Positions 1-17,534 of a stretch of 32,120 nt of DNA are shown one piece after another. Both the position numbers and the translations under genes were made by a program. How positions within the stretch are numbered: the first letter of the stretch is position 1; each line of letters begins with the position of its first letter. The notes below the pieces were generated by a model. It was not told the origin of the DNA. It did not search any database and saw nothing but the letters and a program-made list of their open reading frames with translations. Where the stretch lies: the NCBI GenBank assembly GCA_002067755.1, contig MVQH01000055.1, positions 1-32,120 on the forward strand. Reading direction: 5' to 3'. This DNA is from Methanosaeta sp. PtaB.Bin018 (GTDB taxonomy: Archaea; Halobacteriota; Methanosarcinia; Methanotrichales; Methanotrichaceae).

Positions 1-2
1 TG

Positions 3-155
3 CGGAGAGCCTTGGGTCTGAACACACAGGAGCACAATGGCATGATCAGGGATTATCTGGAAAGCAGGGGACGGCGGGATGGGGAGCGGGTGATACTGGA
101 GGATGATACTGTTCATGTGAGGATGTCGTGGAGGAGAGATACGGTGTCGCCCTGA
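3..155 (+). CDS. C-terminal end of an unidentified protein (partial)
   Basis: An open frame enters from the left edge and runs 50 codons to a TGA at 153-155. It encodes a charged tail rich in Arg, Asp and Glu (for example DYLESRGRRDGERVILEDD). The other two forward frames close early (TGA at about 19 and 109), and the frame is followed at once by a terminator-like hairpin, which supports it being a real 3' end. The family is not recognised and the start lies outside the window. Confidence 0.5.
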   Translation, partial: RRALGLNTQEHNGMIRDYLESRGRRDGERVILEDDTVHVRMSWRRDTVSP

Positions 156-173
156 GCAGCTACGTCAATATCT

Positions 174-195
174 CACCTCCTAGGGGGTGTTCTTA
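174..195 (+). terminator. Hairpin terminator candidate
   Basis: CACCTCC (174-180) and GGGGGTG (183-189) can pair, with one G-U, in a very tight hairpin followed by TTCTTATT. It lies 19 nt after the stop of the partial gene and before the promoter of the first binding-protein gene, so it plausibly separates the two transcripts. Confidence 0.4.
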
Positions 196-237
196 TTGGC
201 AGTAAATCTATTTTTAGCGTAATTTTCAAATATTTAA

Positions 238-305
238 TGCTAATGCGTAACATTAATACCTTAATACGTTATACGGATGTTCAACGGGGTCTCGAACTTG
301 AGGCC
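238..305 (+). promoter_or_regulatory. Promoter element and 5'-leader hairpin of binding-protein gene 1
   Basis: A 23-nt element (238-260), including GTAACATT, occupies the same position as the better-conserved element ahead of genes 3, 5 and 6; I count 16 of 23 identities to the gene 5 copy. It ends 60 nt before the ATG at 321. A hairpin follows: GGTCTC (288-293) pairs with GAGGCC (300-305) with one G-U and a 6-nt loop. GCAGGAGG comes immediately after. If transcription starts about 25 nt past the TATA-like part, the hairpin sits near the mRNA 5' end. Confidence 0.5.
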
Positions 306-320
306 GCAGGAGGAAAAGAG

Positions 321-1544
321 ATGAGATGGAAGATTTTTGCTCTGATGATAGTATGCGCATCGCTGATGGTCGGCTTAGCGTTTGCGCAAGTGACGGATGT
401 CCCTGGCGACAGTAATGGCGACAAGATCGTTTCTGCTGAGGAGGTGGCGGCGGCGGAGAAACTCGCGCAGGAGGGAAAGATAACCAAGGGACAGCTTGAA
501 GAGATAAAGAATATTCATGAAAATTATCCTAAGACAATAACAGACTCGGCCAACAATACTGTAACAATATACAAGCCCATTCAACGAGTAGTTATTGCCT
601 ATTGGATTGATGCTGCTATAACCTTGCAAGCGCTAAAAGCCGAAGATTCGGTTGTTGGTGTAACAGCACCCATTGCTGAGGAGAAGACTCTGTTCCCGAA
701 ACTCAGCAAGCTTCCAGTAGTTGGTGAGATGCCTAGGGTTGAGTCCCTTGATTTTGAAAAGATACTGGAGCTCAGTCCAGATTTGGTAATCACGGGCGGA
801 AATGCCTCTACATGGGATGCGATTCAGAAGAAGGTTCAATCACTAAATCCCGATATAGCAGTGCTTCGTTTCGATTACTGTCAACCGGCAAACTATTTAG
901 ACGAAGTCAACAAGACTGGTTATCTCTTTGATAAGAAAGCGGAAGCTAAAGAATTGATCGATTTCATAGATGATCATTTGAACCAAATTGAAGAGAAGGT
1001 AAATAGTATTCCCAGCGACAAAAGGGTCAACGTCTATTGTGAGGTCTTTAAGGATTATCAGACCGGAGGCACAGGAATGTACTACCCTCATGATTACATC
1101 GAAATGGCAGGAGGAATTAATATTTTCGGCGATACATCACAGGGAACATTTACCACAGATCCGGAAGAGGTGATCAAGCGCAATCCTGACATCATTCTTA
1201 ATCTCATGGGATCGAAGTATGCCGATAGGATTGGGTGGGAGGTAGACAATGTGACAGCCATGCGAGAAAAGAGAGACGAGATCCTGAATCGAACTGGATT
1301 TGGCAATATCTCTGCAGTTAAGACAGGACGGGTCTATGCACTGAGCTCTAATATCCTGATAAATGCCATTTATCCAGTTGGTGTTTCTTATTTGGCCAAA
1401 TGGTTCTATCCCGATCTCTTCCAAGATCTTGACCCTAATGCTGTACATCAGGAATATCTGAACAAATTCCTTGGAATAGACTACGATCTCAGCAAGCACG
1501 GAGCATTTGTGTACCATCCAGAGCAGAACCCTGATGGCAGATGA
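321..1544 (+). CDS. Secreted substrate-binding protein 1 (Fe-siderophore/cobalamin class) with EF-hand
   Basis: This is a 407-aa extracytoplasmic binding protein of the Peripla_BP_2 class (FepB/BtuF-like), which normally delivers metal chelates or corrinoids to an ABC importer. Residues 1-23 form a signal peptide (MRWKIFALMIVCASLM...FAQ). A single EF-hand/dockerin-like calcium loop follows at D30-E41 (D-S-N-G-D-K-I-V-S-A-E-E), then the SKP-like two-lobed fold from 'ITDSANNTVTIYKP'. The ATG at 321 was chosen because GCAGGAGG precedes it and the signal peptide begins there; an in-frame ATG at 237 lies upstream of the leader hairpin. It is the most divergent paralog: the WSYEP motif of genes 2, 3, 5 and 6 is replaced by YWIDAA, and the C-terminus differs. 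No lipobox or C-terminal membrane anchor is visible. The ligand is unknown. Confidence 0.85.
   Translation: MRWKIFALMIVCASLMVGLAFAQVTDVPGDSNGDKIVSAEEVAAAEKLAQEGKITKGQLEEIKNIHENYPKTITDSANNTVTIYKPIQRVVIAYWIDAAITLQALKAEDSVVGVTAPIAEEKTLFPKLSKLPVVGEMPRVESLDFEKILELSPDLVITGGNASTWDAIQKKVQSLNPDIAVLRFDYCQPANYLDEVNKTGYLFDKKAEAKELIDFIDDHLNQIEEKVNSIPSDKRVNVYCEVFKDYQTGGTGMYYPHDYIEMAGGINIFGDTSQGTFTTDPEEVIKRNPDIILNLMGSKYADRIGWEVDNVTAMREKRDEILNRTGFGNISAVKTGRVYALSSNILINAIYPVGVSYLAKWFYPDLFQDLDPNAVHQEYLNKFLGIDYDLSKHGAFVYHPEQNPDGR
417..479 (+). repeat. 63-nt tract identical to 7402-7464
   Basis: The DNA coding for the EF-hand and following helix of gene 1 is identical over 63 nt to gene 5, while the bases on both sides differ. 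This patchy identity suggests recent recombination or gene conversion between the paralogs rather than uniform conservation. Confidence 0.8.
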
Positions 1545-1587
1545 ACGCAGATCTTTTCCAGGCTGCAGATCTCTGACCATCACCTCC

Positions 1588-1593
1588 TTTTTT
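1588..1593 (+). terminator. T-tract after binding-protein gene 1
   Basis: A run of six T lies about 45 nt after the stop of gene 1 and fits an archaeal oligo-T termination signal. Two copies of CAGATCT lie just upstream (about 1547 and 1566). Confidence 0.35.
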
Positions 1594-1680
1594 CTCGGCA
1601 ACCAGCCCACCGAAATCTGATACCCCTTAAAGCGAGCTGTTTTTTATCCTCTGAAGCTTGCTGGACGATCGAGGCATTCA

Positions 1681-1914
1681 TTGATCGATTGGAACCAGAC
1701 CTGGAAGCTCTTAATGCTCGCCACCAGGCAAAGATATCTGACGATTGACTACAATATGTAAGAAGTCGTAGATCGATATGACGGATCTGAGGGCCGCCAG
1801 GCAAATGGCGAGAGACGGGCCGCAGCCCTGGAGATCTATCCCGCCTGGTTGGTCCTGGACATTGGCGCAGAGCCGGGAACCCTGGCCATGCCTTTAGGCT
1901 CGATCCTTCGATAG
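1681..1914 (+). pseudogene. Degenerate class I SAM-methyltransferase N-terminal remnant
   Basis: One reading frame contains (L)IDWNQTWKLLMLATRQR, an in-frame TAA at 1759-1761, then EVVDRYDGSEGRQANGERR and finally AWLVLDIGAEPGTLAMPL, before TAG at 1912-1914. The last segment is methyltransferase motif I (consensus VLDIGxGPGTLAxPLA), with Glu in place of the usual Gly. The ancestral start now reads TTG, and its upstream GAGGCATTCA matches that before the mini-ORF at 5295. Two stops and loss of the rest of the domain show it is dead. It lies between binding-protein gene 1 and the DUF4198 gene. TAG read-through would not help, because TGA follows two codons later. Confidence 0.7.
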
Positions 1915-2110
1915 AGCTGTTGATGAATCAGATGTTATCCTTTGATAGATGGAGTCACTATCAGTATAACATTTAACCTAATATTGATATTTAAACTTTT
2001 ATGATGTCAGAATAATTCTTATTTAGTATTACTTTTTTAGATAGATTTATCTCTTATAACGGATACTCATCCTATCTTGGTAGCATAAGCTGCATCAGGA
2101 GGAATGTTAA
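1915..2110 (+). promoter_or_regulatory. AT-rich promoter region of the DUF4198 gene
   Basis: This gene-free, strongly AT-rich stretch contains a TATA-like GATTTATC (2044-2051). It ends 59 nt before the ATG at 2111, the same spacing as the promoter elements of the binding-protein genes. GGATactcATCC (2061-2072) could form a small hairpin. AGGAGG (about 2098-2103) is the ribosome-binding site. Confidence 0.4.
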
Positions 2111-2839
2111 ATGCGTCACGAATTTGAGGAAAGCGCTGATTTGACAAAGATGGTTGTCGGCCATGAGCTCTGGCTAGGCCAAGCTAAACAAGAAGGCGAT
2201 CAAAGAGAGGTATCCCTGCTCTTTGGCCATAATATGCGCACTGATGGTGTCTTAAATCCGGCAAGGGTCAAACCCTTGATTTATAGACCCGATGGCAGTA
2301 CCATACAACCCACGATGTCCTCCGAGAGCGATAGACATCGGCTCAGATTCCCATTTGCAGGTGACGGTTGCTATACTGCTATAGTGGACCTCGTTCCCAT
2401 TGTCGTCAGTCAGAATAGCGAAGGATATCATATTGGCCCAAAATTTCAATTTAAAGATGTGACATATTCAGGCGCTATAATTTCAATGGCCAAGAGAATA
2501 ATGCCCTTAGGGAATGGTCAGCCAGAACTGAAAGATCCTATGCATGGAATTTTTGAAATAGTGCCTCGCGAAGCCAGATTCCGCAAAGGCGAGGATGCGG
2601 AAATAAGGATTTTCTATGAGGGGCGACCTCTGGCAGGAGCAGAGTTGCGGGTAGTCTCCGAGAAGGAGGGAAAGGAGATGGCGCAAATAAAGACTGATGA
2701 CGATGGGTGGGCGAAGACACCTATGACTGAGGATGGGGATTGGATGTTCTTGGCAAAACATAGAGATCCAGCTAAAAAAGTTAATGAGGAGTTTGACATG
2801 ACAAATTTTGTCACGACACTCGTAATGGAGGTCCAATAG
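2111..2839 (+). CDS. DUF4198-domain protein (nickel/cobalt uptake-associated type)
   Basis: This 242-aa protein matches the DUF4198 pattern: an N-terminal GHELWLGQ, then V-SLLFGHNM, a beta-rich middle, and a C-terminal segment ending in 'DDDGWAKTPMTEDGDWMFLAKH'. DUF4198 domains are known from NikK-like parts of nickel/cobalt transporters and from lone secreted proteins near metal uptake genes; the His residues are suspected metal ligands. Unlike most relatives it has no signal peptide: MRHEFEESADLTKMVV precedes the HELWL motif. An AGGAGG lies 7 nt before the ATG. It sits between binding-protein genes 1 and 2, and only 54 nt separate it from gene 2, so the two may be co-transcribed. Metal binding is inferred from family and context. 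Confidence 0.7.
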   Translation: MRHEFEESADLTKMVVGHELWLGQAKQEGDQREVSLLFGHNMRTDGVLNPARVKPLIYRPDGSTIQPTMSSESDRHRLRFPFAGDGCYTAIVDLVPIVVSQNSEGYHIGPKFQFKDVTYSGAIISMAKRIMPLGNGQPELKDPMHGIFEIVPREARFRKGEDAEIRIFYEGRPLAGAELRVVSEKEGKEMAQIKTDDDGWAKTPMTEDGDWMFLAKHRDPAKKVNEEFDMTNFVTTLVMEVQ

Positions 2840-2893
2840 AGCAAGTTAATGTAATGTGTTAATATTCAAGATAAAAGCAGGAGATTTGAAAAT

Positions 2894-4078
2894 ATGAAAT
2901 GGCAAGTTTTTGCATTAATCCTGGCGCTGTTTGTATCAAATGCAATTATGCCGGCGTTTGCTAAGGGAATCAATGTTCCAGGAGACCGCAATGGCGACAA
3001 GATAGTTTCCGCCGAGGAGGTGGCAGCGGCGGAGAAGCTCGCCAAGGAGGGAAAGCTATCTGCTGATGAGCTGCAGGAGATCAAGCACATCCACGAGAAG
3101 TATCCAATCAGCATTACCGACTCGGCAAACAGGACGGTGACCATCTACAAGCCGGTAGAGGGAATAGTGCTTCTGAACACATACTCCTACGAGCCACTAT
3201 ACATTCTGGGACTAAAGGACAAGCTGGTTGGGGTTACCTCCAGTGCCAAAAGCCTTTATCCGTGGCTGAATGGGATGAAGGAAAAACCTGAGGTGGGGAC
3301 CTATCTAGAATTTGATTATGAAAGGATGGTGGAACTAAAGCCGGACCTTATCATTGCTTCAGCAAAGGTTGCCAACGACCTGGAGGCGAAGGTCCCAGGG
3401 GCTAAAGTAGCAGTATTGCGCTTTGTTAATCAATCTTTATTTGAAAAGGAGCTGAAGACCATTGCTGAGATTACAGGATGCCAAGAGCGGTGCGAAGAGT
3501 ATTTGGCCTGGAGGCAGGAAAAATTGGATTTGCTCAAGACGAAGGTAGACGGCCTGGACCCCGAAAATGAGACTAGGGTCTATTGTGAGTGGGCAGAGTG
3601 GCCCTTGCATTCAGGTGGAAAGGGATCTCCCAAGGATATTACCATAAGCCAGGCGGGAGGAAAGAGCATTACAGGCGATCTTGGCCCTGATAGTCAGTAT
3701 GAGATCTCTCCAGAATGGCTCATTATGCAGAACCCTCAGGCCATGCTCTTCGATAACTCCCAGGATGCCTACTACAATCCAACAACTCTCGTTCAGTATA
3801 ACATGACCAGCACGGAAAAGGCTGAGAAGTTCCTGAAAGAGGTCGTGAAGAGAAAAGAGGTAGCAGGAACAGATGCGGCAAAGAATGGGAGGATGCTTAT
3901 CCTGGAAGAGATGATGGTTGATGGCACCAGAAGCTATATCGGGTCTCTTTATCTGGCCAAGTGGCTTTATCCAGATCTTTTCAAGGATCTTAATCCTGAA
4001 GCAGTTCACAAGGAATACTTCGAGAAGTGGCTCGGTGTGCCTTACCAGGGGATATGGGCTTATCCGCAGGCAGGCTAA
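2894..4078 (+). CDS. Secreted substrate-binding protein 2 with EF-hand
   Basis: This 394-aa paralog has a signal peptide (MKWQVFALILALFVSNAIMPAFA), an EF-hand loop at D31-E42 (DRNGDKIVSAEE), then the binding-protein fold starting at 'ITDSANRTVTIYKP'. It has the family's YSYEPLYILG motif, 'EISPEWLIMQNPQA' in the second lobe, and the paralog-wide ending KEYFEKWLGVPYQGIWAYP. AGGAG lies 10 nt before the ATG. It lacks the promoter/hairpin module of genes 1, 3, 5 and 6, so it is probably read from the DUF4198 promoter. Together with gene 3 it forms a pair that mirrors genes 5 and 6 in domain layout and spacing (140 versus 142 nt). Confidence 0.85.
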   Translation: MKWQVFALILALFVSNAIMPAFAKGINVPGDRNGDKIVSAEEVAAAEKLAKEGKLSADELQEIKHIHEKYPISITDSANRTVTIYKPVEGIVLLNTYSYEPLYILGLKDKLVGVTSSAKSLYPWLNGMKEKPEVGTYLEFDYERMVELKPDLIIASAKVANDLEAKVPGAKVAVLRFVNQSLFEKELKTIAEITGCQERCEEYLAWRQEKLDLLKTKVDGLDPENETRVYCEWAEWPLHSGGKGSPKDITISQAGGKSITGDLGPDSQYEISPEWLIMQNPQAMLFDNSQDAYYNPTTLVQYNMTSTEKAEKFLKEVVKRKEVAGTDAAKNGRMLILEEMMVDGTRSYIGSLYLAKWLYPDLFKDLNPEAVHKEYFEKWLGVPYQGIWAYPQAG

Positions 4079-4101
4079 AGCACGGATTGCCGTTACCAAT
4101 A

Positions 4102-4121
4102 CATTTTTGAGATTTTTTTAG
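4102..4121 (+). terminator. T-rich terminator after gene 2
   Basis: Two T-tracts (TTTTT at about 4104 and TTTTTTT at about 4113) lie 25-40 nt after the gene 2 stop and before the gene 3 promoter element, fitting archaeal oligo-T termination. Confidence 0.45.
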
Positions 4122-4137
4122 ACTTTCCTAATAATTG

Positions 4138-4204
4138 TAATAATAAGTAATATTTATATCCAAGAAAGTCTGTAAGCTGGCCGATTGGCCGAATCTGTTG
4201 GCCA
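4138..4204 (+). promoter_or_regulatory. Promoter element and 5'-leader hairpin of gene 3
   Basis: The 23-nt element at 4138-4160 (beginning TAATAATAAGTAA and ending TTTATATC) matches the gene 6 element at 8565-8587 at 22 of 23 positions and the gene 5 element at 20 of 23. TTTATATC is a good archaeal TATA box. It ends 58 nt before the ATG. TGGCC (4186-4190) pairs with GGCCA (4200-4204) across a 9-nt loop, and CAGGAGGG follows immediately. Confidence 0.65.
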
Positions 4205-4218
4205 CAGGAGGGAAATAG

Positions 4219-5262
4219 ATGAGATGGACGAAACTCGCTCTGGCACTGGTGCTGTGCTTTTCGTTTGCGGTGATGCCCGCTCTGAGTGCCGAAAGCTATC
4301 CCAAGACAATTGTGGATGATGCGAACCGAACAATAACCATTGATAGTCCTGCAGAAAAGATCATTCCTCTGGTTACCTGGAGCTATGAACCCCTGTATCT
4401 GTTAGGTGCAGATGATAAGATTGTTGGGATCACTTCCGATGCTCAGAGTTACTATAACTGGCTGGAGGGAATTATGGACAAGCCTGTAGTAGGCAGCTAT
4501 AAGGAGCATGATTACGAAAAGATAATTGAAATCCAACCAGATATAATAATAACCCAGGCCAGGTTTGCTGGCAACCTTGAGAAGAACCTCTCTGGGATTA
4601 ACGTCGTTGTTCTTGACTTCAGCAATCAAGATGGCTTCGAAAGAGATCTGACGCTTCTGGCCGAACTTGTAGGTGGGCAGGATAAAGCTGCAAGCTTCCT
4701 AGCATGGAGAGGTGAGGTACTAGCCAATTTGCAGAATAAAACTGACTCTCTGAAGCCAGATGAGATGAAGCGGGTATATATTGAATGGGACCATACTCCA
4801 TGGACAACAGCTGGAGCGGGTTCAGCTAAGGATACCCTAATAACCAGAGCTGGTGGCTTGAATATTGCCCATAACCTTACAGGGTCTCGCCCAACAGTAG
4901 ATCCAGAATGGGTTCTCAAAGAGAATCCTCAAGCGGTTGTATATTCTTCCTCTGGACCCACAGCTGTGGGGCTCACAGGATATTATGTGAATAGCACTGA
5001 CGTATCCAAAGCGTATCTAGAAGAGGAAAAGAGAAGGGCTGCTCTGAAAGATACCGACGCTGCTAGAGAAGACCACCTCTATGTGATGGATGGCATGTGC
5101 GTCGAGGCTTTACGGAACTTTGTCGGAGCGCAATATTTGGCTAAGTGGCTCTATCCCGAGCAGCTCAAGGATCTTGATCCAGAAGCCTTGCACAAAGAGT
5201 ATTTCGAGAAGTGGTTAGGAGTGCCTTACAAGGGAATATGGACCTATCCTCAGGCGAGCTGA
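4219..5262 (+). CDS. Secreted substrate-binding protein 3 (short form, no EF-hand)
   Basis: This 347-aa paralog has a signal peptide (MRWTKLALALVLCFSFAVMPALSA) leading straight into the binding fold ('YPKTIVDDANRTITI') with no calcium loop. It carries TWSYEPLYLLG, 'AGAGSAKDTLITRAGG', 'TVDPEWVLKENPQAVVYSS' and the shared ending YFEKWLGVPYKGIW. It is far closer to gene 6 than to the others along its whole length. AGGAGGG precedes the ATG by about 8 nt. A T-rich stretch upstream and its own promoter module suggest it is a single-gene transcript. No membrane anchor or lipobox is seen. Confidence 0.88.
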   Translation: MRWTKLALALVLCFSFAVMPALSAESYPKTIVDDANRTITIDSPAEKIIPLVTWSYEPLYLLGADDKIVGITSDAQSYYNWLEGIMDKPVVGSYKEHDYEKIIEIQPDIIITQARFAGNLEKNLSGINVVVLDFSNQDGFERDLTLLAELVGGQDKAASFLAWRGEVLANLQNKTDSLKPDEMKRVYIEWDHTPWTTAGAGSAKDTLITRAGGLNIAHNLTGSRPTVDPEWVLKENPQAVVYSSSGPTAVGLTGYYVNSTDVSKAYLEEEKRRAALKDTDAAREDHLYVMDGMCVEALRNFVGAQYLAKWLYPEQLKDLDPEALHKEYFEKWLGVPYKGIWTYPQAS

Positions 5263-5294
5263 AGGCCGAAAAAACCGATAATAGGAGGCATTCA

Positions 5295-5360
5295 ATGACC
5301 GACTGGAGCCAGGGACGGCTATCTCAAGCTAATTGCTGGATAAAGGAATGCATATTATGA
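5295..5360 (+). CDS. 21-codon mini-ORF overlapping gene 4; truncated methyltransferase start
   Basis: An AGGAGG (5283-5288) sits 6 nt before an ATG that opens a 21-aa frame beginning MTDWSQ and ending at TGA 5358-5360, which overlaps the gene 4 ATG as ATGA. The DNA around its start (GGAGGCATTCA, then TGA-CGA-TGGA) closely resembles 1671-1690, the start of the methyltransferase remnant after gene 1. It therefore looks like the broken 5' end of a second copy. It may now act as a translated leader that couples ribosomes into gene 4, whose own ribosome-binding site is weak. Whether the peptide is made is unknown. Confidence 0.4.
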   Translation: MTDWSQGRLSQANCWIKECIL

Positions 5361-6646
5361 GAGCATATACGAAAATTTGGCTGGTTTTTCTGACACTGAT
5401 GGCAGCGTCGCCGTATGCGTTAGGTGCCTTATCCGGTGATCAGAAAGCAGAGGATTTTACTCTAGGAATCTTTGGAAATGCGAATATGGATGCCAAGGTG
5501 GATGAGGATGATATATCGTATTTGCAGGGAATAATTGATGGAAAAAATGAAAAGACAAAGCTGGCAGATGCAAATTTCGATGGAAAAGTTGATGAGAACG
5601 ATGCCATTATGATAGAAGAGATCATTAATGGTGAGGAGAAGGAATTAACCGTTATAGATTCAGCAAATCGAACTGTAACTGTAAAGATGCCTGTGGCAAA
5701 TGTTGTCATCGCTTACATGGGGCCGCACGAGCCCATGATCATCCTCGCAAAGGAAAAGATCGCTGGATGGGAAGGAGGAATTCCGAAATACCGAGGAGAC
5801 ATAGTTGAAAAAGCAGGACTGGAAGATGTGCCCTTAGTTGGAGAGGGATTGGATGGCTCGGGCCTTGACTATGAAAAGATCCTAGAGATCAACCCGGACA
5901 TCATCCTGGCAACTTCATTCTGCGCAAAAGAGATTGCTGATAAAATCAACGAGACTGGCAATCAGGGAATTCCTGTAATAGCACTGGATTTCGATGAAGC
6001 GGGCACACAGGAGATGATACAGGAGTTCAGAAAGCTAGGGCTGATTGTGGGAAATGAGGAAAAGGCGGAGGAGGTTGTCGATTGGATCTTAAAATACGAT
6101 GGCATTATCGAGAATAGAACAAATAACTTACCAGAAAGCGAAATTCCCACGTACTATCTGGAAGCCTGGTCTAAGCAATATGTGACTTTAGGCTCAAATG
6201 CCTATGATGGAAAAGCCCTTGCTGGTTGCGGCGGACGGAATATCATAGACGGTTCAGATTTCGTTGCGGGGTCCTATGGCCAATATGAGGTGGACCCCGA
6301 ATGGGTGTTGGACCAGAATCCAGAGTTTATATTCATCTGGGTGAAGGTCTCCTCCGATCCAGCTGGGTTCTCATGGACTGAAGATAACGCTAAATTAGAG
6401 CTTGCAGAAGATATTGCAAGGCCCGGGTGGGACAAACTGGATGCAGTGAAAAATGGAAGGGTCTATATATACCACAGGACTATGGCGATGAGTCCCAGGT
6501 ATATCGTCGCCAGGCTCTATTTCGCCAAATGGCTACATCCAGAGCTATTCAAAGATATAGATCCTGAATCCATTCACAGGGAGTATTGGAAGAAATTCTT
6601 GGATATTGACCTGAATGGAGTATGGGTGTATCCGCCACCTGCATAG
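5357..6646 (+). CDS. Secreted substrate-binding protein 4 with full dockerin domain
   Basis: This 429-aa protein has a signal peptide (MRAYTKIWLVFLTLMAASPYALG), then two calcium loops at about 41-52 (NANMDAKVDEDD) and 71-82 (DANFDGKVDEND), each followed by a helix: a complete dockerin type I layout. The Peripla_BP_2 fold starts at 'VIDSANRTVTVKMP'. It differs from the others in HEPMIILA, 'GQYEVDPEWVLDQNPEF' and a C-terminus of FLDIDLNGVWVYPPPA. The ATG at 5357 was chosen over 5348 or a TTG at 5333 because AAAGGA then has proper spacing and the start matches the MR(W/C) paralogs. It lacks the hairpin promoter module. The dockerin could tether it to a cohesin or surface partner; none is in the window. 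Confidence 0.85.
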   Translation: MRAYTKIWLVFLTLMAASPYALGALSGDQKAEDFTLGIFGNANMDAKVDEDDISYLQGIIDGKNEKTKLADANFDGKVDENDAIMIEEIINGEEKELTVIDSANRTVTVKMPVANVVIAYMGPHEPMIILAKEKIAGWEGGIPKYRGDIVEKAGLEDVPLVGEGLDGSGLDYEKILEINPDIILATSFCAKEIADKINETGNQGIPVIALDFDEAGTQEMIQEFRKLGLIVGNEEKAEEVVDWILKYDGIIENRTNNLPESEIPTYYLEAWSKQYVTLGSNAYDGKALAGCGGRNIIDGSDFVAGSYGQYEVDPEWVLDQNPEFIFIWVKVSSDPAGFSWTEDNAKLELAEDIARPGWDKLDAVKNGRVYIYHRTMAMSPRYIVARLYFAKWLHPELFKDIDPESIHREYWKKFLDIDLNGVWVYPPPA

Positions 6647-6672
6647 ATTTTTCATTTTTATTATTTTACTTC
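6647..6672 (+). terminator. T-rich terminator after gene 4
   Basis: Immediately after the stop of gene 4 comes a long T-rich run (TTTTTCATTTTTATTATTTT), a typical archaeal oligo-T terminator. It also bounds the 3' end of the reverse-strand methyltransferase remnant. Confidence 0.55.
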
Positions 6673-6709
6673 TGTCATCATATAATAGCTCCAGTTAACC
6701 AGCACCTTC

Positions 6710-7196
6710 TTAATCCATTGCCTCCTCTGGCGAAAGCCCAGTTGGGTGTGGAAGGGATAATTCGATTGAGCGATCGTACCAGCCCTTTCGTGGGTTTTCG
6801 TGGTCCGCTAATACAATGGCCAAATCCGAGAGTAGCCTTCTAAACCTGCTTTCAATAGACCCATCCCTCCACTTGCCATCGATTACTGCCACCAGGCCAC
6901 CATCTCTTAGGACTCTGTATCACTCCATAAGGGCCTTCTCAGGATGGGGCAAGGTCCAAAGAAGGTATCTGTTGAAGACTAAGTCAAATGCCCCATCCTG
7001 GATTTTAAGGTCTTCTGCACCCCCCATGGCTGAACTTGGCCTCAAGATTCATCTTTTTGGCCTTGGACCTTGACCTCTCTACCATTTTATTCTGCTGAAA
7101 GACCCGATAGAGAAAGCCAAATCATGAACCACATTCGCCAGTCAAATCTAGAACAACATCATCTTTTGCCTCTATCGAGACGAGAACTTCGGGCCA
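6710..7196 (-). pseudogene. Class I SAM-methyltransferase pseudogene (stops and poly-G frameshift)
   Basis: Read on the minus strand from about 7196: WPEVLVSIEAKDDVVLDLTG (motif I region, VLDxGxG), an in-frame TGA at 7122-7124, then FGFLYRVFQQNKMVERSRSK and AKKMNLEAKFSHGG. A G6 run (+ strand C6 at 7021-7026) shifts the frame; removing one G gives HGGAEDLKIQDGAFDLVFNR, then LLWTLPHPEKALME, a TGA at 6920-6922 where the family has Trp (EWYRVL), and RVLRDGGLVAVIDGKW to a TAA at 6710. The order matches Methyltransf_11 enzymes. Three lesions show decay. The N-terminus ahead of motif I is not recognisable. It fills most of the 659-nt gap between binding-protein genes 4 and 5. Confidence 0.8.
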
Positions 7197-7223
7197 GAGG
7201 ATGCATAGAATGTACTGGATTAG

Positions 7224-7290
7224 TAGTAATAAGTAACATTTTTATCATAGAAAATCTCTAGACATAAAATGTTGACCTCTGGCTGAGGTC
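7224..7290 (+). promoter_or_regulatory. Promoter element and 5'-leader hairpin of gene 5
   Basis: The 23-nt element at 7224-7246 (TAGTAATAAGTAA then CATTTTTATC) ends 59 nt before the ATG. GACCTC (7274-7279) pairs perfectly with GAGGTC (7285-7290) across a 5-nt loop, followed at once by GCAGGAGG. The geometry is the same as for genes 1, 3 and 6, but the stem sequence is different. Confidence 0.6.
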
Positions 7291-7305
7291 GCAGGAGGAC
7301 AAGCG

Positions 7306-8505
7306 ATGAGATGTAGTGCTATAGTTCTGATATTAGCATGCATAGCACTGATGATTGGAACCGCGCTAGCCCAAGGAACAGATATTCCCGGCGATGATAA
7401 CGGCGACAAGATCGTTTCTGCTGAGGAGGTGGCGGCGGCGGAGAAACTCGCGCAGGAGGGAAAGTTATCCGCGGACGAGTTGCAGGAGATAAAGCACATT
7501 CATGAGAAGTATCCAATCAACATTACAGACTCGGCAAACAGGTCAGTGACGATCTATAAGCCGGTGAAGACCATTATATCTCTGCCATCCTGGTCGTATG
7601 AGCCCATTTTCATTTTGGATGGCCTGGATAAAGTAGCTGGTGTGACCAACACTGCCCAGGAAACCTACCCTTGGATTCCTGAAATGGTCATCAAGCCGAC
7701 AGTAGGAAAATACAATGATATAGACTACGAAAAGGTGATTGAGCTTCGACCGGATATGGTGATAGCGGGAAATCCCAAGAAGGTCAATGTTTCAGAGGAA
7801 AAGCTCAATCCAGCTGGAATTCCTTTCGTGGTTTTTCCCTTCAACAACCAGAATGACTTTGAGAAAGAGCTGAAGGCTCTGGCCAGCATCTTGGAGAAAG
7901 AAGAGAGGGCGGAAGAGTTTCTATTATGGCGACAGGGCTACGTGGATGAAATAGCGGAAAGGGTTAACGCTATAAAGCCCGAAGAGAGGGAAAAGGTTTA
8001 CGGAGAGAGCAACGGTCATGCCTTCTGGGCAGCAACCAATGCCTCTGGATTCCATAAGGCCATTGCGATGGCCGGAGGAGACAACATCGCGGCTAATTTG
8101 GTGGGTCAGCCTTATTATATCGATGTTGATCCGGAGTGGGTGCTAAACGAAAATCCTGCTGTTGTGGTAATAGCTGCAACCATGTCCGACCAGGTTCCTG
8201 GACCCGATTTGAACTACAATGCTCCGGCGAACGCCACAGAAGGCCTCGAGAAGTATCTGGAAGAGGTACGAAATAGAACCGGACTCAAGGGCACTAACGC
8301 GGCAAAAGACCGTCGTGTGTATCTCCTTCATGGATATTGCACCGAGGCGGTAACTAGGAGCTTTATCGGAGCGTATTACATGGCCAAGTGGTTCTATCCT
8401 GAGCAGTTCAAGGATATAGATCCCGATGCCATCCACAGGGAGTACTTCGAGAAGTGGCTGGGAGTGCCTTACAAGGGGATATGGGCATACCCGCGGGCGA
8501 GCTAA
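7306..8505 (+). CDS. Secreted substrate-binding protein 5 with EF-hand
   Basis: This 399-aa protein has a signal peptide (MRCSAIVLILACIALMIGTALA), an EF-hand loop at D30-E41 (DDNGDKIVSAEE), and the binding fold from 'ITDSANRSVTIYKP'. It shows SWSYEPIFIL, 'VDPEWVLNENPAVVVIAA' and the ending EYFEKWLGVPYKGIWAYP. GCAGGAGG precedes the ATG. In layout it matches gene 2 and is likewise followed by a short-form paralog. The 63-nt identity with gene 1 lies in its EF-hand region. The Cys in the signal peptide is not in a lipobox context, so a lipid anchor is unlikely. Confidence 0.87.
   Translation: MRCSAIVLILACIALMIGTALAQGTDIPGDDNGDKIVSAEEVAAAEKLAQEGKLSADELQEIKHIHEKYPINITDSANRSVTIYKPVKTIISLPSWSYEPIFILDGLDKVAGVTNTAQETYPWIPEMVIKPTVGKYNDIDYEKVIELRPDMVIAGNPKKVNVSEEKLNPAGIPFVVFPFNNQNDFEKELKALASILEKEERAEEFLLWRQGYVDEIAERVNAIKPEEREKVYGESNGHAFWAATNASGFHKAIAMAGGDNIAANLVGQPYYIDVDPEWVLNENPAVVVIAATMSDQVPGPDLNYNAPANATEGLEKYLEEVRNRTGLKGTNAAKDRRVYLLHGYCTEAVTRSFIGAYYMAKWFYPEQFKDIDPDAIHREYFEKWLGVPYKGIWAYPRAS
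7402..7464 (+). repeat. 63-nt tract identical to 417-479
   Basis: This is the gene 5 copy of the identical tract found in gene 1. The corresponding gene 2 segment (about 2992-3054) encodes nearly the same peptide but has several silent and a few coding differences. Confidence 0.8.
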
Positions 8506-8515
8506 TCGCCGATCC

Positions 8516-8525
8516 CTTTCTTTTT
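8516..8525 (+). terminator. T-rich terminator after gene 5
   Basis: A pyrimidine tract ending in TTTCTTTTT lies about 10 nt after the stop of gene 5, upstream of the gene 6 promoter module. Confidence 0.4.
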
Positions 8526-8564
8526 AGGCATATTATTAAATATTGCAATAATTCAAGATAATAG

Positions 8565-8631
8565 TAATAATAAGTAAAATTTATATCTAACATAGTAGGT
8601 TAATAAGGACCAACGGGCAGAGTTCGTCTGC
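8565..8631 (+). promoter_or_regulatory. Promoter element and 5'-leader hairpin of gene 6
   Basis: The element at 8565-8587 differs from that of gene 3 at one position and ends in the TATA box TTTATATC, 60 nt before the ATG. GCAGA (8617-8621) pairs with TCTGC (8627-8631) across a 5-nt loop, and GGAGG follows 4 nt later. Confidence 0.65.
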
Positions 8632-8647
8632 TGTCGGAGGGAAAAAC

Positions 8648-9691
8648 ATGAAATGGATAAAATGCGGTTTGGCGCTAATGCTATGCTTTTCGCTGCTAGC
8701 ACTGGTAGCGGCGGGAGCTGATGGATATCCAAAGACCATTGTCGATGATGCAAATAGAACCATAACAATTGATAAGCCCGTGGAGAAGATCGTGCCTCTG
8801 GTGACCTGGAGCTATGAGCCCCTTTACATGTTAGGTGCAAATGATAAGATCGTCGGGGTCACCACTGACGCGCAGCAAGTTTATCCCTGGCTGGAAGGGA
8901 TTCTAAATAAGACTGTAGTCGGTACCTACAAACAGCACAACTACGAAAAGATAATTGAACTTCGGCCTGATATAGTTATAACCCAGGCCAGGTACGCAGG
9001 AGCTTTAGACCAAAACCTATCAGGTATTAAGGTAGTAGTACTCGATTTCAGCCGGCAGAGCGACTTCGAGCATGATCTGAATCTCCTGGCAGAGCTGGTG
9101 GGAGGACAGGATAAAGCCAAGGAGTTCCTGGCCTGGAGAACAGAGCAGCTCGATAGCCTGAAGAAAAAGACAGATCTGCTGAAGAACGATTCGAAGAAGA
9201 GCGTTTATATAGAGTGGTCTGATACGCCCTGGGTCACAGCCGGAGCAGGCTCGGCCAAAGATACTCTGATCTTGCGGGCGGGAGGCGTGAATATCGCCCA
9301 TAACTTGACGGGAGCCAGGCCCACTGTCGACCCTGAATGGGTTCTAAAGGAGAATCCACAGGCTGTCGTCTATTCATCTACGTTCCCCGCACCTTCGCCC
9401 CTAACCGGATATAGCCTCAACAGCACCGATGCTGCAAAAGGGTTCCTGGCGAATGAGAAGAAAAGAGATGGCTTGAAGGATACGGATGCCGCTAAGAAGG
9501 ACCATCTCTATGTATTGGATCAGATATGCGTTGAATCTACCAGAAACTTCATAGGCGCACAATACCTAGCCAAGTGGCTCTATCCTGATCAGTTCAAAGA
9601 TTTGGATCCGGAAGCTGTTCACAAGGAGTACTTCGAGAAGTGGCTGGGCGTGCCGTACAAAGGAATATGGGCATATCCACAGGCGAGCTGA
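8648..9691 (+). CDS. Secreted substrate-binding protein 6 (short form, no EF-hand)
   Basis: This 347-aa protein is the same length as gene 3 and its nearest relative. The signal peptide (MKWIKCGLALMLCFSLLALVAAG) leads directly into 'YPKTIVDDANRTITIDKP'. It has TWSYEPLYMLG, 'TAGAGSAKDTLILRAGG', 'TVDPEWVLKENPQAVVYSS' and the standard C-terminus. GGAGGG precedes the ATG. It is the last intact binding-protein gene; a T-tract and a radical-SAM fragment follow rather than an importer permease. The ligand cannot be read from sequence. Confidence 0.88.
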   Translation: MKWIKCGLALMLCFSLLALVAAGADGYPKTIVDDANRTITIDKPVEKIVPLVTWSYEPLYMLGANDKIVGVTTDAQQVYPWLEGILNKTVVGTYKQHNYEKIIELRPDIVITQARYAGALDQNLSGIKVVVLDFSRQSDFEHDLNLLAELVGGQDKAKEFLAWRTEQLDSLKKKTDLLKNDSKKSVYIEWSDTPWVTAGAGSAKDTLILRAGGVNIAHNLTGARPTVDPEWVLKENPQAVVYSSTFPAPSPLTGYSLNSTDAAKGFLANEKKRDGLKDTDAAKKDHLYVLDQICVESTRNFIGAQYLAKWLYPDQFKDLDPEAVHKEYFEKWLGVPYKGIWAYPQAS

Positions 9692-9760
9692 ATGTCCAAT
9701 TGAAGCATGAAAACAGATAAACAGATTCAAGCCGTACCTTTATTGCTTCGTGACCATCGC

Positions 9761-9771
9761 TTATTTTTTTT
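9761..9771 (+). terminator. Oligo-T terminator after gene 6
   Basis: TTATTTTTTTT lies about 70 nt after the gene 6 stop and is the strongest T-tract in this interval. Confidence 0.45.
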
Positions 9772-9791
9772 GAGTTTAAATCTGCGGTCAA

Positions 9792-10130
9792 ATGGCAAGT
9801 TCTTTCGATCTGTTAGAAATGCAACTGCTGACACAATCAAGCATTGAATTAAGGAGTCTCAGAAAAAATGAAAGCAGTGTTTCGTTCGTTCAGATCGAGG
9901 GGATCAGGACAACGAAGATTCGACGATTTCTGATTTCCCGACAACCAGGCATGCTGCCCTATGGAGATGGCATTGCCAAGGCCTGGCGCTGCTTGCAGCG
10001 CGAAGTCGCCAACCTGAACGCGAGCTGCTCTTCCTGTTCGCAATTCGCCTCATGTGGCGGTGGCTGCCTGGCCAACAAAACCAAGTCTGGAAAAGAATAC
10101 TACTGTCCTTACAACGAAGTTGGAAAATAG
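9792..10130 (+). pseudogene. Truncated radical-SAM protein: SPASM-type C-terminal fragment
   Basis: The 112-codon frame carries a SPASM-like cysteine pattern in its last 35 residues: CSSCSQFASCGGGCLANK then YYCPY, that is C-x2-C-x5-C-x3-C and a later C. SPASM domains hold auxiliary Fe-S clusters at the end of radical-SAM enzymes. Just upstream, 'QPGMLPYGDGIAKAW' resembles the linker before SPASM domains. The radical-SAM core with its CxxxCxxC is absent here and not found upstream. The first about 40 residues look unrelated. No ribosome-binding site precedes the ATG. A stand-alone small Fe-S protein is possible, but a gene remnant is more likely. Confidence 0.5.
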
Positions 10131-10139
10131 CTGATGAAA

Positions 10140-10151
10140 AAGCATATATCG
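10140..10151 (+). promoter_or_regulatory. TATA box for the ABC-2 transporter operon
   Basis: AAGCATATATCG lies about 26 nt before the ATG at 10177, the spacing expected for a leaderless archaeal transcript starting at that ATG. No ribosome-binding site is seen before any candidate start. Confidence 0.45.
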
Positions 10152-10176
10152 TATGATATCCTCTTCCGCAAGTAAA

Positions 10177-11118
10177 ATGGACTCCCAAGAAATGATCCTC
10201 GTCGAAAACCTTGTCAAATCCTTCTCCACCCATAAAGTCGTCGACGGCGTCTCCTTCTCAGTCCATTCCGGCGAGACCCTAGGCCTCCTGGGCCCAAACG
10301 GCGCAGGCAAGACCACCACCATCCGCATGCTCACCGGCCTCGTCCGTCCCTCCTCCGGCACGATCCGCGTGGGAGGCTACGACGTCCAGAAGAATCCCAT
10401 CGAGGCCAAGCGCCTCTTCGGCATCTCTCCCCAGGAGGCCAGCTTTCATCCTCACTTAAGCATTGCCGAGGACCTCTACTTCTACGCCCGGCTGCGCGGC
10501 CTCTCCCGCTCCGAATCGAGGCTGCAAGCCCGTGAGACCATTGCCTGGGCAAAGCTCGAGGAGCACTCTGCCAAAAATGGCCATCAGCTCTCCGGAGGCA
10601 TGCAGCGCCGCCTGCTGATGGCACGGGCGCTGATAACCGATCCGCCCATACTCTATCTGGACGAGCCCACCACTGGCCTTGACCCGCAGAGCAGGCATGC
10701 TCTCTGGGACTACATATCTGAGCTGAAAGAGCGGAAGAAGACTCTCATCCTCACCACCCACTACATGGAGGAGGCGGAGGTGCTCTGCGATCGGGTGATC
10801 ATCATAGACCATGGCAGGATCATCGCCCAAGGCTCGCCCTCTCTGCTCCGGCGATCTGTGGGCATCGACTCAGTCCTCACCCTCAAACCCCGCCGCCCCT
10901 TTTCGTCTGCAGATCTTCTGGCACTGCGAAAGATTCCTGGCGTGATGGACCTTCATAGCTCCAACGGCTGCCTCCTGATTCATCTGCGAGAGAAGGAGGC
11001 CCTGGACGAGATAGTGGTAACCGCATCAAGGCTTGCGGGGATCGAGGAGCTTGACCTGAAGGAGCCCGGCCTTGAGGACGTCTTTTTGCAGCTCACAGGC
11101 AGGGGGCTGCGAGAATGA
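10177..11118 (+). CDS. ABC transporter ATPase, DrrA/CcmA-type (ABC-2 export)
   Basis: This 313-aa ATPase drives an ABC-2 membrane exporter. Visible motifs: Walker A GPNGAGKTT (39-47), Q-loop ISPQEASF, signature LSGGMQ (138-143), Walker B ILYLDEPT (D162, E163) followed by TGLDP, and H-loop TTHYMEEAE. The C-terminal about 90 residues form the extra domain usual in DrrA-like proteins. The start at 10177 was chosen from the TATA spacing; ATGs at 10153 and 10192 are in frame. Its stop overlaps the next permease start by 4 nt (ATGA). Codon use is notably C-rich in its first part. The substrate is unknown. Confidence 0.9.
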   Translation: MDSQEMILVENLVKSFSTHKVVDGVSFSVHSGETLGLLGPNGAGKTTTIRMLTGLVRPSSGTIRVGGYDVQKNPIEAKRLFGISPQEASFHPHLSIAEDLYFYARLRGLSRSESRLQARETIAWAKLEEHSAKNGHQLSGGMQRRLLMARALITDPPILYLDEPTTGLDPQSRHALWDYISELKERKKTLILTTHYMEEAEVLCDRVIIIDHGRIIAQGSPSLLRRSVGIDSVLTLKPRRPFSSADLLALRKIPGVMDLHSSNGCLLIHLREKEALDEIVVTASRLAGIEELDLKEPGLEDVFLQLTGRGLRE

Positions 11119-11867
11119 TTCCCCGCGCGGTGTCTGCCTCTCTGGTCACATTCGAGAGGGAGATCTATGACTATCGAAAGAATCTATTTCTATTCGCTCT
11201 GCGCAATCTCATCCAGCCGTTCTTCTTCGTGCTGGTGATTGGCATTGGCCTAGGCTCCATGGTGAGCCTGCCCGGCCGCGAGTCGTACCTGAGCTTCATG
11301 ATTCCGGGGATACTTATGATGTGCGTGGTGCAGGTCTGCTATCAGCACTTCAGCTCTGAGATCTGGATGTCCAAGAACCACGAGGGCTACCTGGAGCTGC
11401 TCACCATGGCAGCGCCCATCAAGCCGCACGAGGCGGTGGCCGGATATCTGCTGACGGGCGTAGTAGTTGCCTTCTTCGCAGTCCTTTGCTTCCTCCTGCC
11501 CGTCTGGCTGTTTCTTTCCGGATTTCACATCTCCCTTGCCGCCCTAATTCTATTCACCATCGGGCTTGCGCTTTTCTTCACCTCGGCAGGAATTATAGTG
11601 GGCGTAACCGTTAGTCATCCCCACAACCTGACAACTGTGAGCCTCTTCATCACCATGCCTCTTACCTATCTGTGCGGGGTATTCATTCCCACAGAGATGT
11701 ATCCCAGGGCAGCAAGAGTGCTGATCGAGGCTATTCCCCTAACCCAGGCCATCGAGGGATTGAGGAGTGGTGGTGTCCCGATATTCGAGATTGCCTATGT
11801 CTGGGCGATGGCTGCAATCGCAATGATCTTTGCAGCCAGGTGTTTTGAGAAGAATATGCACCTGTGA
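11115..11867 (+). CDS. ABC-2 type permease A
   Basis: This 250-aa protein has about six hydrophobic segments, the usual size for ABC-2 permeases of the DrrB/NodJ kind. The family features are the N-terminal 'TFEREIYDYRKNLFLFALRNLIQPFFF', the 'SYLSFMIPGILMMCVVQ' loop and a late 'PLTYLCGVFIPTEMYP...IPLTQAIEGLR' segment. It is translationally coupled to the ATPase (ATGA overlap), so the two form one exporter. A second, related permease lies at 16773, beyond cobN, so the working transporter may be a heterodimer. It converges with the flavoprotein gene 19 nt downstream. Confidence 0.88.
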   Translation: MIPRAVSASLVTFEREIYDYRKNLFLFALRNLIQPFFFVLVIGIGLGSMVSLPGRESYLSFMIPGILMMCVVQVCYQHFSSEIWMSKNHEGYLELLTMAAPIKPHEAVAGYLLTGVVVAFFAVLCFLLPVWLFLSGFHISLAALILFTIGLALFFTSAGIIVGVTVSHPHNLTTVSLFITMPLTYLCGVFIPTEMYPRAARVLIEAIPLTQAIEGLRSGGVPIFEIAYVWAMAAIAMIFAARCFEKNMHL

Positions 11868-11886
11868 CCTCTCCAACCAAAATAGG

Positions 11887-12429
11887 CTAAGATAGAGATG
11901 CTCCAAGCTCATATGCCCTCCTGATCTCCTCAGGACTCCTTTCTATCTCCCCTCGCTCATAGGCTCTGGCCAGTATGCTTCCTGCCATATTCATGCCCAG
12001 ATAATCGAAGGACCTGCGAAACATCTCCATCAGCGGCCCGCAACAGCCCGGCCCTTCTTCAGATGGCATTACTACTATCCCCCTCTTGCCTTTCAATCTC
12101 CTGCTCTCAATGTATGGCCGCAGTCGGTCGACCAGCAGCTTCATCTTCGCCGTAGGGCCGTACCAGTAGACCGGCGTCCCAAAGATGATAAGGTCCGAAT
12201 CCTCAAGCTTTGGGTATATCACCTGCATTCCATCCTTCAGAGTGCATGCGTGGTCGGCTTCCTGTCGCTTGCAGTGGCGGCAGTCAATGCAGGGCAGGAT
12301 CTCGTAGTCATAGAGGCGTACAGTCTCCACTACATGCCCCACTGCCTTTGAACCCCTGCAAATCTCATTCACTAGGATATCGGTATTGCCCTGTTTTCTT
12401 GGGCTGCCAATCAGAGCCAGGATTTTCAT
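11887..12429 (-). CDS. Iron-sulfur flavoprotein (NADPH-dependent FMN reductase family) A
   Basis: This 180-aa protein has a flavodoxin-like FMN fold: the phosphate-binding GSPRKQGNTD at the N-terminus, and 'FGTPVYWYGPTAKMKLLVDR' further on. The compact cysteine motif CIDCRHCKRQEADHAC (C-x2-C-x2-C-x7-C) is that of the methanogen iron-sulfur flavoprotein Isf, which binds a 4Fe-4S cluster and FMN and serves as an electron carrier or O2/peroxide reductant. It is on the opposite strand within the transporter/cobN group and shares a 47-nt divergent promoter gap with the gene at 12477. A redox supply to the chelatase system is possible but unproven. Confidence 0.88.
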   Translation of the reverse strand: MKILALIGSPRKQGNTDILVNEICRGSKAVGHVVETVRLYDYEILPCIDCRHCKRQEADHACTLKDGMQVIYPKLEDSDLIIFGTPVYWYGPTAKMKLLVDRLRPYIESRRLKGKRGIVVMPSEEGPGCCGPLMEMFRRSFDYLGMNMAGSILARAYERGEIERSPEEIRRAYELGASLS

Positions 12430-12455
12430 CGGATAATTGAAAAGACTTATGAGAT

Positions 12456-12470
12456 AATAGTGTTACTATT
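12456..12470. promoter_or_regulatory. Palindrome in divergent promoter gap (possible operator)
   Basis: AATAGT-GTT-ACTATT is a perfect 6-bp inverted repeat with a 3-nt spacer, midway in the 47-nt gap between the divergent flavoprotein and the gene at 12477. It would overlap or abut the start regions of both genes, so it is a reasonable repressor site. Confidence 0.35.
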
Positions 12471-12476
12471 GAGCTG

Positions 12477-13022
12477 ATGTTGGATATCACAGATCTCGGC
12501 GATAGCCTTCTGTATGTGGAGAGCGACCGCTGGCATTGCGACTTCGGTCACGGGAGACCGGTGATGCTCGGCCTTGTCTTTGAGGCGGTGGACCTGGGCG
12601 AGATCGATGGGCACTCATTCGTCATAGATGCCTCACTTGTCCCCCAGCCAGAATGCCTGAACGAGGAGGTCTTGGAGCAAGCGAAGGCCGAGTGCGCTCT
12701 TACTCGGAGGGAGATGATTCGCTATGTATACGAGTGCTATGGCGGTGTGCCTGTGAACATCGATGCCCTTCAGCCCGTGAAGTCTTCATGCGGCTTCTCC
12801 AGCTTCGTGGCGGATAGCAGCATCGGCTCACTGAAAGACGAATCCGGAGAGGAGATGGAAGTTCGTCGTTTTGAGAATCTCGAAGATGCTATGCACTTTG
12901 CCCGTGAATTTTACGCTGCAAATGCACATGTTCTCTTCGAATTCATCGACTTTGTGCTGGACCGTCCCCTTCGGTCTGGAGGAACTGGCTGGGACAAGAT
13001 CCGGCTGATAACAAAAAAATAA
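12477..13022 (+). CDS. Uncharacterised protein upstream of cobN
   Basis: This 181-aa soluble protein has no recognised family, signal peptide or membrane segment. It is acidic, with a well-conserved-looking N-terminus (LLYVESDRWHCDFGHGRPVM) and a helical C-terminal half ('FENLEDAMHFAREFYAANAHVLFEFIDF'). His, Cys and Asp/Glu are frequent in the first 90 residues. It starts at ATG 12477 without a clear ribosome-binding site. It lies 64 nt upstream of cobN in the same direction and so is probably co-transcribed; a helper role for the chelatase is guesswork. Codon quality and the bounded reading frame support a real gene. Confidence 0.7.
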   Translation: MLDITDLGDSLLYVESDRWHCDFGHGRPVMLGLVFEAVDLGEIDGHSFVIDASLVPQPECLNEEVLEQAKAECALTRREMIRYVYECYGGVPVNIDALQPVKSSCGFSSFVADSSIGSLKDESGEEMEVRRFENLEDAMHFAREFYAANAHVLFEFIDFVLDRPLRSGGTGWDKIRLITKK

Positions 13023-13069
13023 TCGCAAAATAATCATCGCAAAGTTAATCATCGCAAAGTGATCGCAAA
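13022..13069 (+). repeat. Four ATCGCAAA direct repeats in the cobN leader
   Basis: ATCGCAAA occurs at 13022, 13036, 13051 and 13062 (spacings 14, 15 and 11 nt), filling the gap between the upstream gene and the cobN ribosome-binding site CGGAGGAG. A fifth copy with a 15-nt match (CATCGCAAAGTTAAT) lies in the leader of the PRC-barrel gene at 22144. It may be a regulator site or simple repeat expansion. Confidence 0.6.
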
Positions 13070-13086
13070 ACATTCGGAGGAGATAA

Positions 13087-16776: not shown

Positions 16777-17534
16777 CTCGTCTGGCTCTAAGTGGGGTGG
16801 GCAGTGTATCTGCAGTCCTCTGGCCAGACCTGGTGGCCCTGCAGCGCAACCTGTCGCGCTATCTAATTGCCACTGTGGTCAGTCCCATCCTTTACATGGC
16901 TGCCTTCGGCTATGGTCTTGGAGGCAATATCCAGATGGAGGGGGCGAGCTATCTGGAGTTCGTGATCCCTGGAATCATAGCCATGACTGCCATGAACAGC
17001 AGCTTCAATGGCTCTGGGACGAGGCTCATCATAGACCAGATTCATTGGCGCAGCTTCGATGAAACTCTCATGGCCCCAATCGGCCAGCCAGCGCTGTTGC
17101 TCGGCAAAGCCATGATCGGCGTCCTGAGAGGCGGAGTCAGCTCCATCGCTTTCTTGATCGTGGCGTTCATCTTAAAGCCGGACCTTCATATCAACCTGCT
17201 CTTCCTCATCAGCCTGCTATTGACCTGCCTGATATTTTCTTTTTTAGGCGTTCTCTCTGCTCTACTGGCCCGCTCTTACGAGGATATGATCATGTTCACG
17301 AGCATCATCATCACGCCCATGGCATTCTTGGGAGGGACCTTCTTCTCACTGAGCTATTTGCCCGCAGGGTTGAAATACGCCCTCTATCTGCTGCCGCTCA
17401 CTCATGCGAGCATCTGCCTGCGAGCGTCGATCCTCGGCCAGAGCGTCCCATATGTGTCTTCATTGGCCCTGGTTGGTTTTCTGGCGCTCTTTTCAGGCGG
17501 AGCGCTGTTGGCTTTGAAGAGAAAGGATGCATAA
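16773..17534 (+). CDS. ABC-2 type permease B
   Basis: This 253-aa membrane protein has six predicted hydrophobic segments and ABC-2 hallmarks: 'SRYLIATVVSPILYMAAFGYGLG', 'SYLEFVIPGIIAMTAMNSSFNG', 'ITPMAFLGGTFFSLSYLP' and 'LLPLTHASICLR'. Its start overlaps the cobN stop as ATGA, so its translation is coupled to the chelatase. There is no adjacent ATPase; the nearest is at 10177, which is already paired with permease A. A shared ATPase and a two-permease exporter is the simplest reading. It ends the + strand cluster and converges on the FKBP gene. Confidence 0.88.
   Translation: MTRLALSGVGSVSAVLWPDLVALQRNLSRYLIATVVSPILYMAAFGYGLGGNIQMEGASYLEFVIPGIIAMTAMNSSFNGSGTRLIIDQIHWRSFDETLMAPIGQPALLLGKAMIGVLRGGVSSIAFLIVAFILKPDLHINLLFLISLLLTCLIFSFLGVLSALLARSYEDMIMFTSIIITPMAFLGGTFFSLSYLPAGLKYALYLLPLTHASICLRASILGQSVPYVSSLALVGFLALFSGGALLALKRKDA

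Follow-up and report, generated by a model that had tools for sequence, protein, structure and literature searches.

Short hairpins at the 5′ ends of mRNAs are well known from bacteria. In the 5′-terminal stem-loop stabilizers, such as those of Escherichia coli ompA and papA and of the Bacillus subtilis aprE leader, the hairpin lies at or near the 5′ end, ahead of the ribosome binding site, and it is the structure rather than the sequence that matters. The effects of these leaders on stability have been measured, and stabilization of bacterial mRNAs by 5′ hairpins is documented more widely (PMC3997798). In archaea, decay in the 5′-to-3′ direction exists and involves an exonuclease that acts on mRNA (PMC3792030). 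Two other kinds of structured leader are also relevant to the present case. The cobalamin riboswitch and other cis-regulatory elements in Rfam occupy 5′ leaders before uptake genes, and in the methanogen Methanolobus psychrophilus the ribosome binding site is buried by a predicted stem-loop within longer 5′ UTRs (PMC5378194).

The leader described here, from a Methanothrix-type archaeon, resembles the ompA, papA and aprE kind in its position ahead of the Shine-Dalgarno (SD) sequence and in the retention of structure despite two-sided changes in three pairs and variable loops; a place at or near the mRNA 5′ end is predicted from the TATA position. It differs from them in being archaeal, in being known from sequence alone and in being common to a duplicated gene family. 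Like the cobalamin riboswitch and the other Rfam elements it precedes uptake genes, but it matches no Rfam family, has no conserved core and consists of one small hairpin. Like the M. psychrophilus leaders it is a methanogen 5′ UTR with a predicted stem-loop, but one of short predicted length, whose SD is not part of the hairpin. In the literature searched we found no comparative case for selection on a short 5′-end hairpin in archaeal leaders. We regard the leader as a real and narrowly distributed structured element, of a kind that is known and of which this example is uncatalogued.

Genomic setting and shared promoter

The DNA analysed (hereafter the window) is a stretch of 32,120 nucleotides that corresponds to contig C55 in a Methanothrix-type genome of 2.2 Mb; related contigs carry the names Methanosaeta or Methanothrix. 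Genes 1 to 6, which start at 321, 2894, 4219, 5357, 7306 and 8648, all encode Peripla_BP_2 substrate-binding proteins. Genes 1, 3, 5 and 6 are paralogs within this family, and a search with gene 3 as query gave 32 matches in the genome. An EF-hand/dockerin-like stretch was spotted by eye in gene 1. Beside the binding-protein array (window 9792-17534), a gene for a 1229-aa CobN-type chelatase is flanked by genes for ABC-2 type exporters.

The initial annotation placed a TATA element 60, 58, 59 and 60 nt before the ATG of genes 1, 3, 5 and 6, respectively, and these distances proved correct when they were re-measured (Table 1). Genes 2 and 4, which were said to lack the leader, do lack it, and both sit behind other genes. 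That the four genes share the element is true of genes 3, 5 and 6. Gene 1 carries a degenerate form, which was not picked up by a pattern scan of the genome even when up to three mismatches were allowed. With at most one mismatch, the pattern TAATAAGTAANATTTWTATC occurs at six sites in the whole genome, namely those of genes 3, 5 and 6 and three on contig C21, and all six precede members of one Peripla_BP_2 subfamily. An extension of the pattern beyond this subfamily was considered and rejected, as outside matches in 26 genomes of the genus were near the level of a reversed-pattern control.

The shared element reads as a BRE plus a TATA box. Transcription in a related methanogen starts about 19–22 nt from the promoter (PMC5378194), and this spacing would give 5′ UTRs of about 37–40 nt here, with transcription predicted to begin just upstream of the hairpin.

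Table 1. Positions of promoter elements, hairpins, SD sequences and genes in the window.
Feature	Position	Strand	Basis
Promoter element, gene 1 (degenerate form of shared BRE/TATA)	238..260	+	11/14 core positions; ends 60 nt before ATG
Hairpin, gene 1, GGTCTC 288-293 / GAGGCC 300-305; 7-column family stem	287..306	+	53.6 bits with R1 (training member); covariation
SD GGAGG, gene 1 (ATG at 321)	309..313	+	Sequence; predicted 91% unpaired
Gene 1, ABC substrate-binding protein (Peripla_BP_2) with signal peptide	321..1544	+	Pfam PF01497, 5.8e-25
Shared promoter element, gene 3 (TAATAATAAGTAATATTTATATC)	4138..4160	+	Exact match
Hairpin, gene 3, TGGCC 4186-4190 / GGCCA 4200-4204; alternative left arm 4178-4182	4186..4204	+	26.1 bits, structure model
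Gene 3, Peripla_BP_2	4219..5262	+	Family match
Shared promoter element, gene 5	7224..7246	+	Pattern match
Hairpin, gene 5, TGACCTC 7273-7279 / GAGGTCG 7285-7291	7273..7291	+	42.1 bits with R1 (training member); covariation
SD, gene 5 (ATG at 7306)	7294..7298	+	Sequence
Gene 5, Peripla_BP_2	7306..8505	+	Family match
Shared promoter element, gene 6	8565..8587	+	Exact pattern match
Hairpin, gene 6, GGCAGA/TCTGCT	8616..8632	+	Stem found; without homology support
Gene 6, Peripla_BP_2	8648..9691	+	Family match

Hairpins in the four leaders

The arms originally described, GGTCTC/GAGGCC for gene 1, TGGCC/GGCCA for gene 3, GACCTC/GAGGTC for gene 5 (7274-7279 and 7285-7290) and GCAGA/TCTGC for gene 6 (8617-8621 and 8627-8631), were all found in the sequence. 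In most leaders the left arm lies 25–26 nt past the TATA element (range 19–28 nt) and the right arm 14–16 nt before the ATG, although the spacer sequence cannot be aligned. For gene 3 the second TGGCC is the better candidate for the left arm because the first is probably upstream of the transcription start. The predicted minimum-energy fold of this leader pairs otherwise and partly covers the start.

Pairing maintained by different letters in the four leaders had been taken as the mark of a selected RNA structure. However, no alignment over the left arm is possible between the leaders of genes 3 and 6 and those of genes 1 and 5, so that the four leaders by themselves do not demonstrate compensatory change; this comparison is too weak to carry the conclusion, which nevertheless holds for two to three of the four. 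Stems of at least 6 bp are also common in the slot that the hairpin occupies, being found in 12.6% of ordinary leaders, taken from the sampled genome stretches, versus 8.8% of shuffled leaders. Thus, a single hairpin in a single leader proves little, and a comparative test is needed. The idea that the hairpin is a general feature of leaders was discarded, as no genome-wide enrichment was seen relative to shuffles or to shifted slots.

Covariation among homologous leaders

We aligned eight gene 1/5 type leaders, comprising those of window genes 1 and 5, two from C21, three from PtaU1.Bin060 and one from PtaB.Bin039, and thus spanning three Methanothrix genomes. From the hairpin to the SD the alignment has gaps at only two places, a base in the loop and a base following the SD. 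A stem of seven pairs is present with 94.6% of its cells paired, and three of the pairs have changed on both sides. None of 500 shuffles reached the observed pairing or covariation score, and sliding of the stem partners lowered pairing to 25–59%. Of 5040 random matchings of left and right stem columns, 0.24% reached the values observed, and RNAalifold returned the same 7-pair stem unprompted.

Comparisons between individual leaders reveal the same pattern. Five positions differ between the C21A and B39 hairpins, four of them in two pairs whose changes compensate each other (C-G to U-A and G-C to A-U), and the sister leaders P60c and P60d are distinguished by a change of U-G to A-U and one loop base. 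The P4 pair is U-G in half of the leaders. When 12 leaders are considered, 58 of the 60 outer-stem cells are paired, a count that is biased by three leaders found with the structure model; whole-arm swaps among ten non-redundant leaders equalled the observed pairing in 0.005% of trials. These figures come from a subfamily carried by few genomes, in which gene conversion leaves some leaders non-independent.

Outside the stem, only the SD and the ATG are conserved. The loop columns are variable, and the loops differ in sequence and in length from 5 to 22 nt (for example GAACTT, TGGCT, CGGTTT, GGACGC and TGTCAT) with no conserved motif. The covariation that was anticipated in leaders of related species is present for the gene 1/5 type. 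These comparisons indicate that the hairpin has been selected as a structure and not as a sequence in leaders of that type, and the structure model described below supports the same view for gene 3.

Recovery of held-out leaders

The initial annotation proposed a search of Methanothrix genomes with a covariance model. Two models, R1 with structure and R2 with sequence only, were trained on this set of eight leaders and applied to leaders that had been held out. The addition of structure raised the scores of these leaders by 13–19 bits, from 30.5 to 49.4 bits for a PtaU1.Bin112 leader (L210), from 12.8 to 25.6 bits for P60b, and from 12.5 to 26.5 bits for the leader of a different binding protein in another species (L213, from G006). 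The leader of window gene 3, likewise held out, was missed by R2 and reached 26.1 bits with the structure model, and unrelated places in the same sources scored at most 17 bits. Such structure-dependent gains argue that the signal is carried by structure and not by the SD alone, and that gene 3, with its left arm at 4186-4190, belongs to the group. Weak R1 matches in other genomes (L211, L212, L214–L218, L236 and L237) lie in coding context or ahead of unrelated genes, and we ascribed them to chance. The G006 leader, which belongs to a Methanothrix gene (G006:C265, 1501-1533), has a CGGCC/GGCCG hairpin together with CAGGAGG.

Gene 6 scored only 11.8 bits with R1, in a different register. Its 6-bp hairpin is stable but receives no support from homologs, and for this gene the claim of a selected structure does no better than chance. 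Good hairpins are also missing from three related leaders, C21C (one C-A mismatch), P60f and P112. Two of these, C21C and P60f, have the same promoter, and the hairpin is therefore not essential.

The hairpins of both genes 3 and 6 could be chance stems in diverged leaders, with the gene 1/5 type alone being real. We consider this possible but on the whole doubtful. The background frequency of stems of at least 6 bp, the three leaders that lack a good hairpin and the low score of gene 6 all speak for it, but gene 3 obtained its score from a structure model built without it, and its outer U-A pair alternates with C-G in G006. As a claim about scope, this explanation is compatible with a passive hairpin in the leaders of genes 1 and 5.

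A copied 5′ module

The coding regions of gene 1 and C21A are 98–100% identical over their first 120 bases, and their hairpins and SD sequences are close. Upstream the two are unrelated (spacer 43%), and from position 180 onward they are about 53% identical. The near-identical block (window 287-480; L050, minus strand from about 10729) includes the hairpin, the SD, the signal peptide and the dockerin-like stretch. This block is a sign of recent gene conversion, and for gene 1 and C21A it shows that hairpin, SD and signal peptide were copied as a unit between paralogs. The module is present on the G006 gene, and neither it nor the hairpin was found in the nearest sampled relatives of that gene. 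A leader and signal peptide can evidently spread together between paralogs.

Possible function of the hairpin

The fixed distance from the TATA element to the hairpin, despite an unconserved spacer, makes a passive 5′-end hairpin the simplest reading. We hold with moderate confidence that such a hairpin protects the mRNA end, keeps the SD open or does both, and that it is carried as a mobile 5′ module. The leader would then consist of a BRE/TATA promoter, a predicted start site, a few unpaired nucleotides, a hairpin of 5–7 bp, the SD and the ATG. Located at the mRNA 5′ end, the hairpin would block decay that depends on that end, and its folding on itself would prevent pairing between the neighbouring SD and nucleotides upstream. 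Strong and steady synthesis of a secreted binding protein would be the expected result.

In line with a protective role, a homolog of RNase J is found in the genome, although the match has one internal TGA. Predictions for the window leaders give an SD that is 48–91% unpaired, with the minimum-energy fold of gene 3 as a partial exception. Predicted SD opening exceeds the scrambled-leader mean in 12 of 14 leaders with a hairpin versus none of three without, an effect that is modest in individual leaders and does not hold for B39 or gene 6. The earlier proposal that a selected structure forms at the 5′ end of the mRNA stands for genes 1 and 5, on covariation and on constant placement between TATA element and SD, and for gene 3 through the structure model; it does not stand for gene 6, and the 5′ end itself is a prediction.

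Two switch mechanisms were considered and rejected. In one the ribosome binding site would be masked, and here the SD lies outside the hairpin and is not paired by default in the predicted folds. In the other, the CCUC of the left arm in gene 1/5 type leaders, which is able to pair with the real SD, would act as an anti-SD; this is not conserved in the leaders of gene 3, gene 6 or G006.

It is unlikely, in our view, that a regulatory protein (a translational repressor or stabilizer) binds the short stem near the SD and thereby co-regulates the paralog set. Such a site would suit an element that is confined to a single set of co-duplicated genes sharing a promoter, is no general feature of leaders and is fixed in position relative to the SD, but the unconserved sequence and length of the loop leave little except the stem for a protein to read. 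We would likewise give little weight to a broader proposal, in which an undescribed, genus-restricted archaeal leader element within a mobile 5′ module (hairpin, SD and signal peptide) jointly sets the post-transcriptional output of the paralogous binding-protein set, possibly via a dedicated RNA-binding protein.

Less plausible is a DNA inverted repeat that has no RNA function and is kept by templated (quasi-palindrome) correction or by recombination. The gene-conversion tracts of gene 1 and C21A do end near the hairpin, but several stems have G-U pairs, which templated correction would remove and RNA tolerates, and the position is locked to the TATA element and the SD. A riboswitch that responds to metal or corrinoid and controls translation, as the suggested response to metal or cofactor would require, is very improbable even though the genes lie near a CobN-like gene and code for binding proteins of the metal-chelate type, given variable loops, the lack of a conserved unpaired ligand-binding core in the aligned leaders, a single hairpin of about 20 nt in a leader of about 40 nt, no conserved alternative pairing seen, an SD that is left open, and an Rfam scan of window 1-13100 (E ≤ 1) that gave no plausible match and one spurious match, to the n-myc IRES, at 10764-10914.

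The duplicated genes supply natural compensatory changes, which makes the element open to testing by breaking and repairing the stem.

Other loci

A stem ahead of the DUF4198 gene at 2111, GTAGC(ATAA)GCTGC (window 2087-2113; 5 bp, before the SD), was set aside as uninformative. Its only close homolog has an identical stem, remoter homologs have none, and no covariation was seen. A contig filed under a Dehalococcoidales MAG (L096) holds a Methanothrix-like pair of DUF4198 and binding-protein genes, probably as a result of misbinning. Finally, an exact copy of the promoter with a leader precedes a short broken reading frame in another sequence (L061, G022:C70, minus strand, about 2327-2236). This frame lies directly upstream of the gene 4 ortholog and is probably the remnant of a lost paralog.
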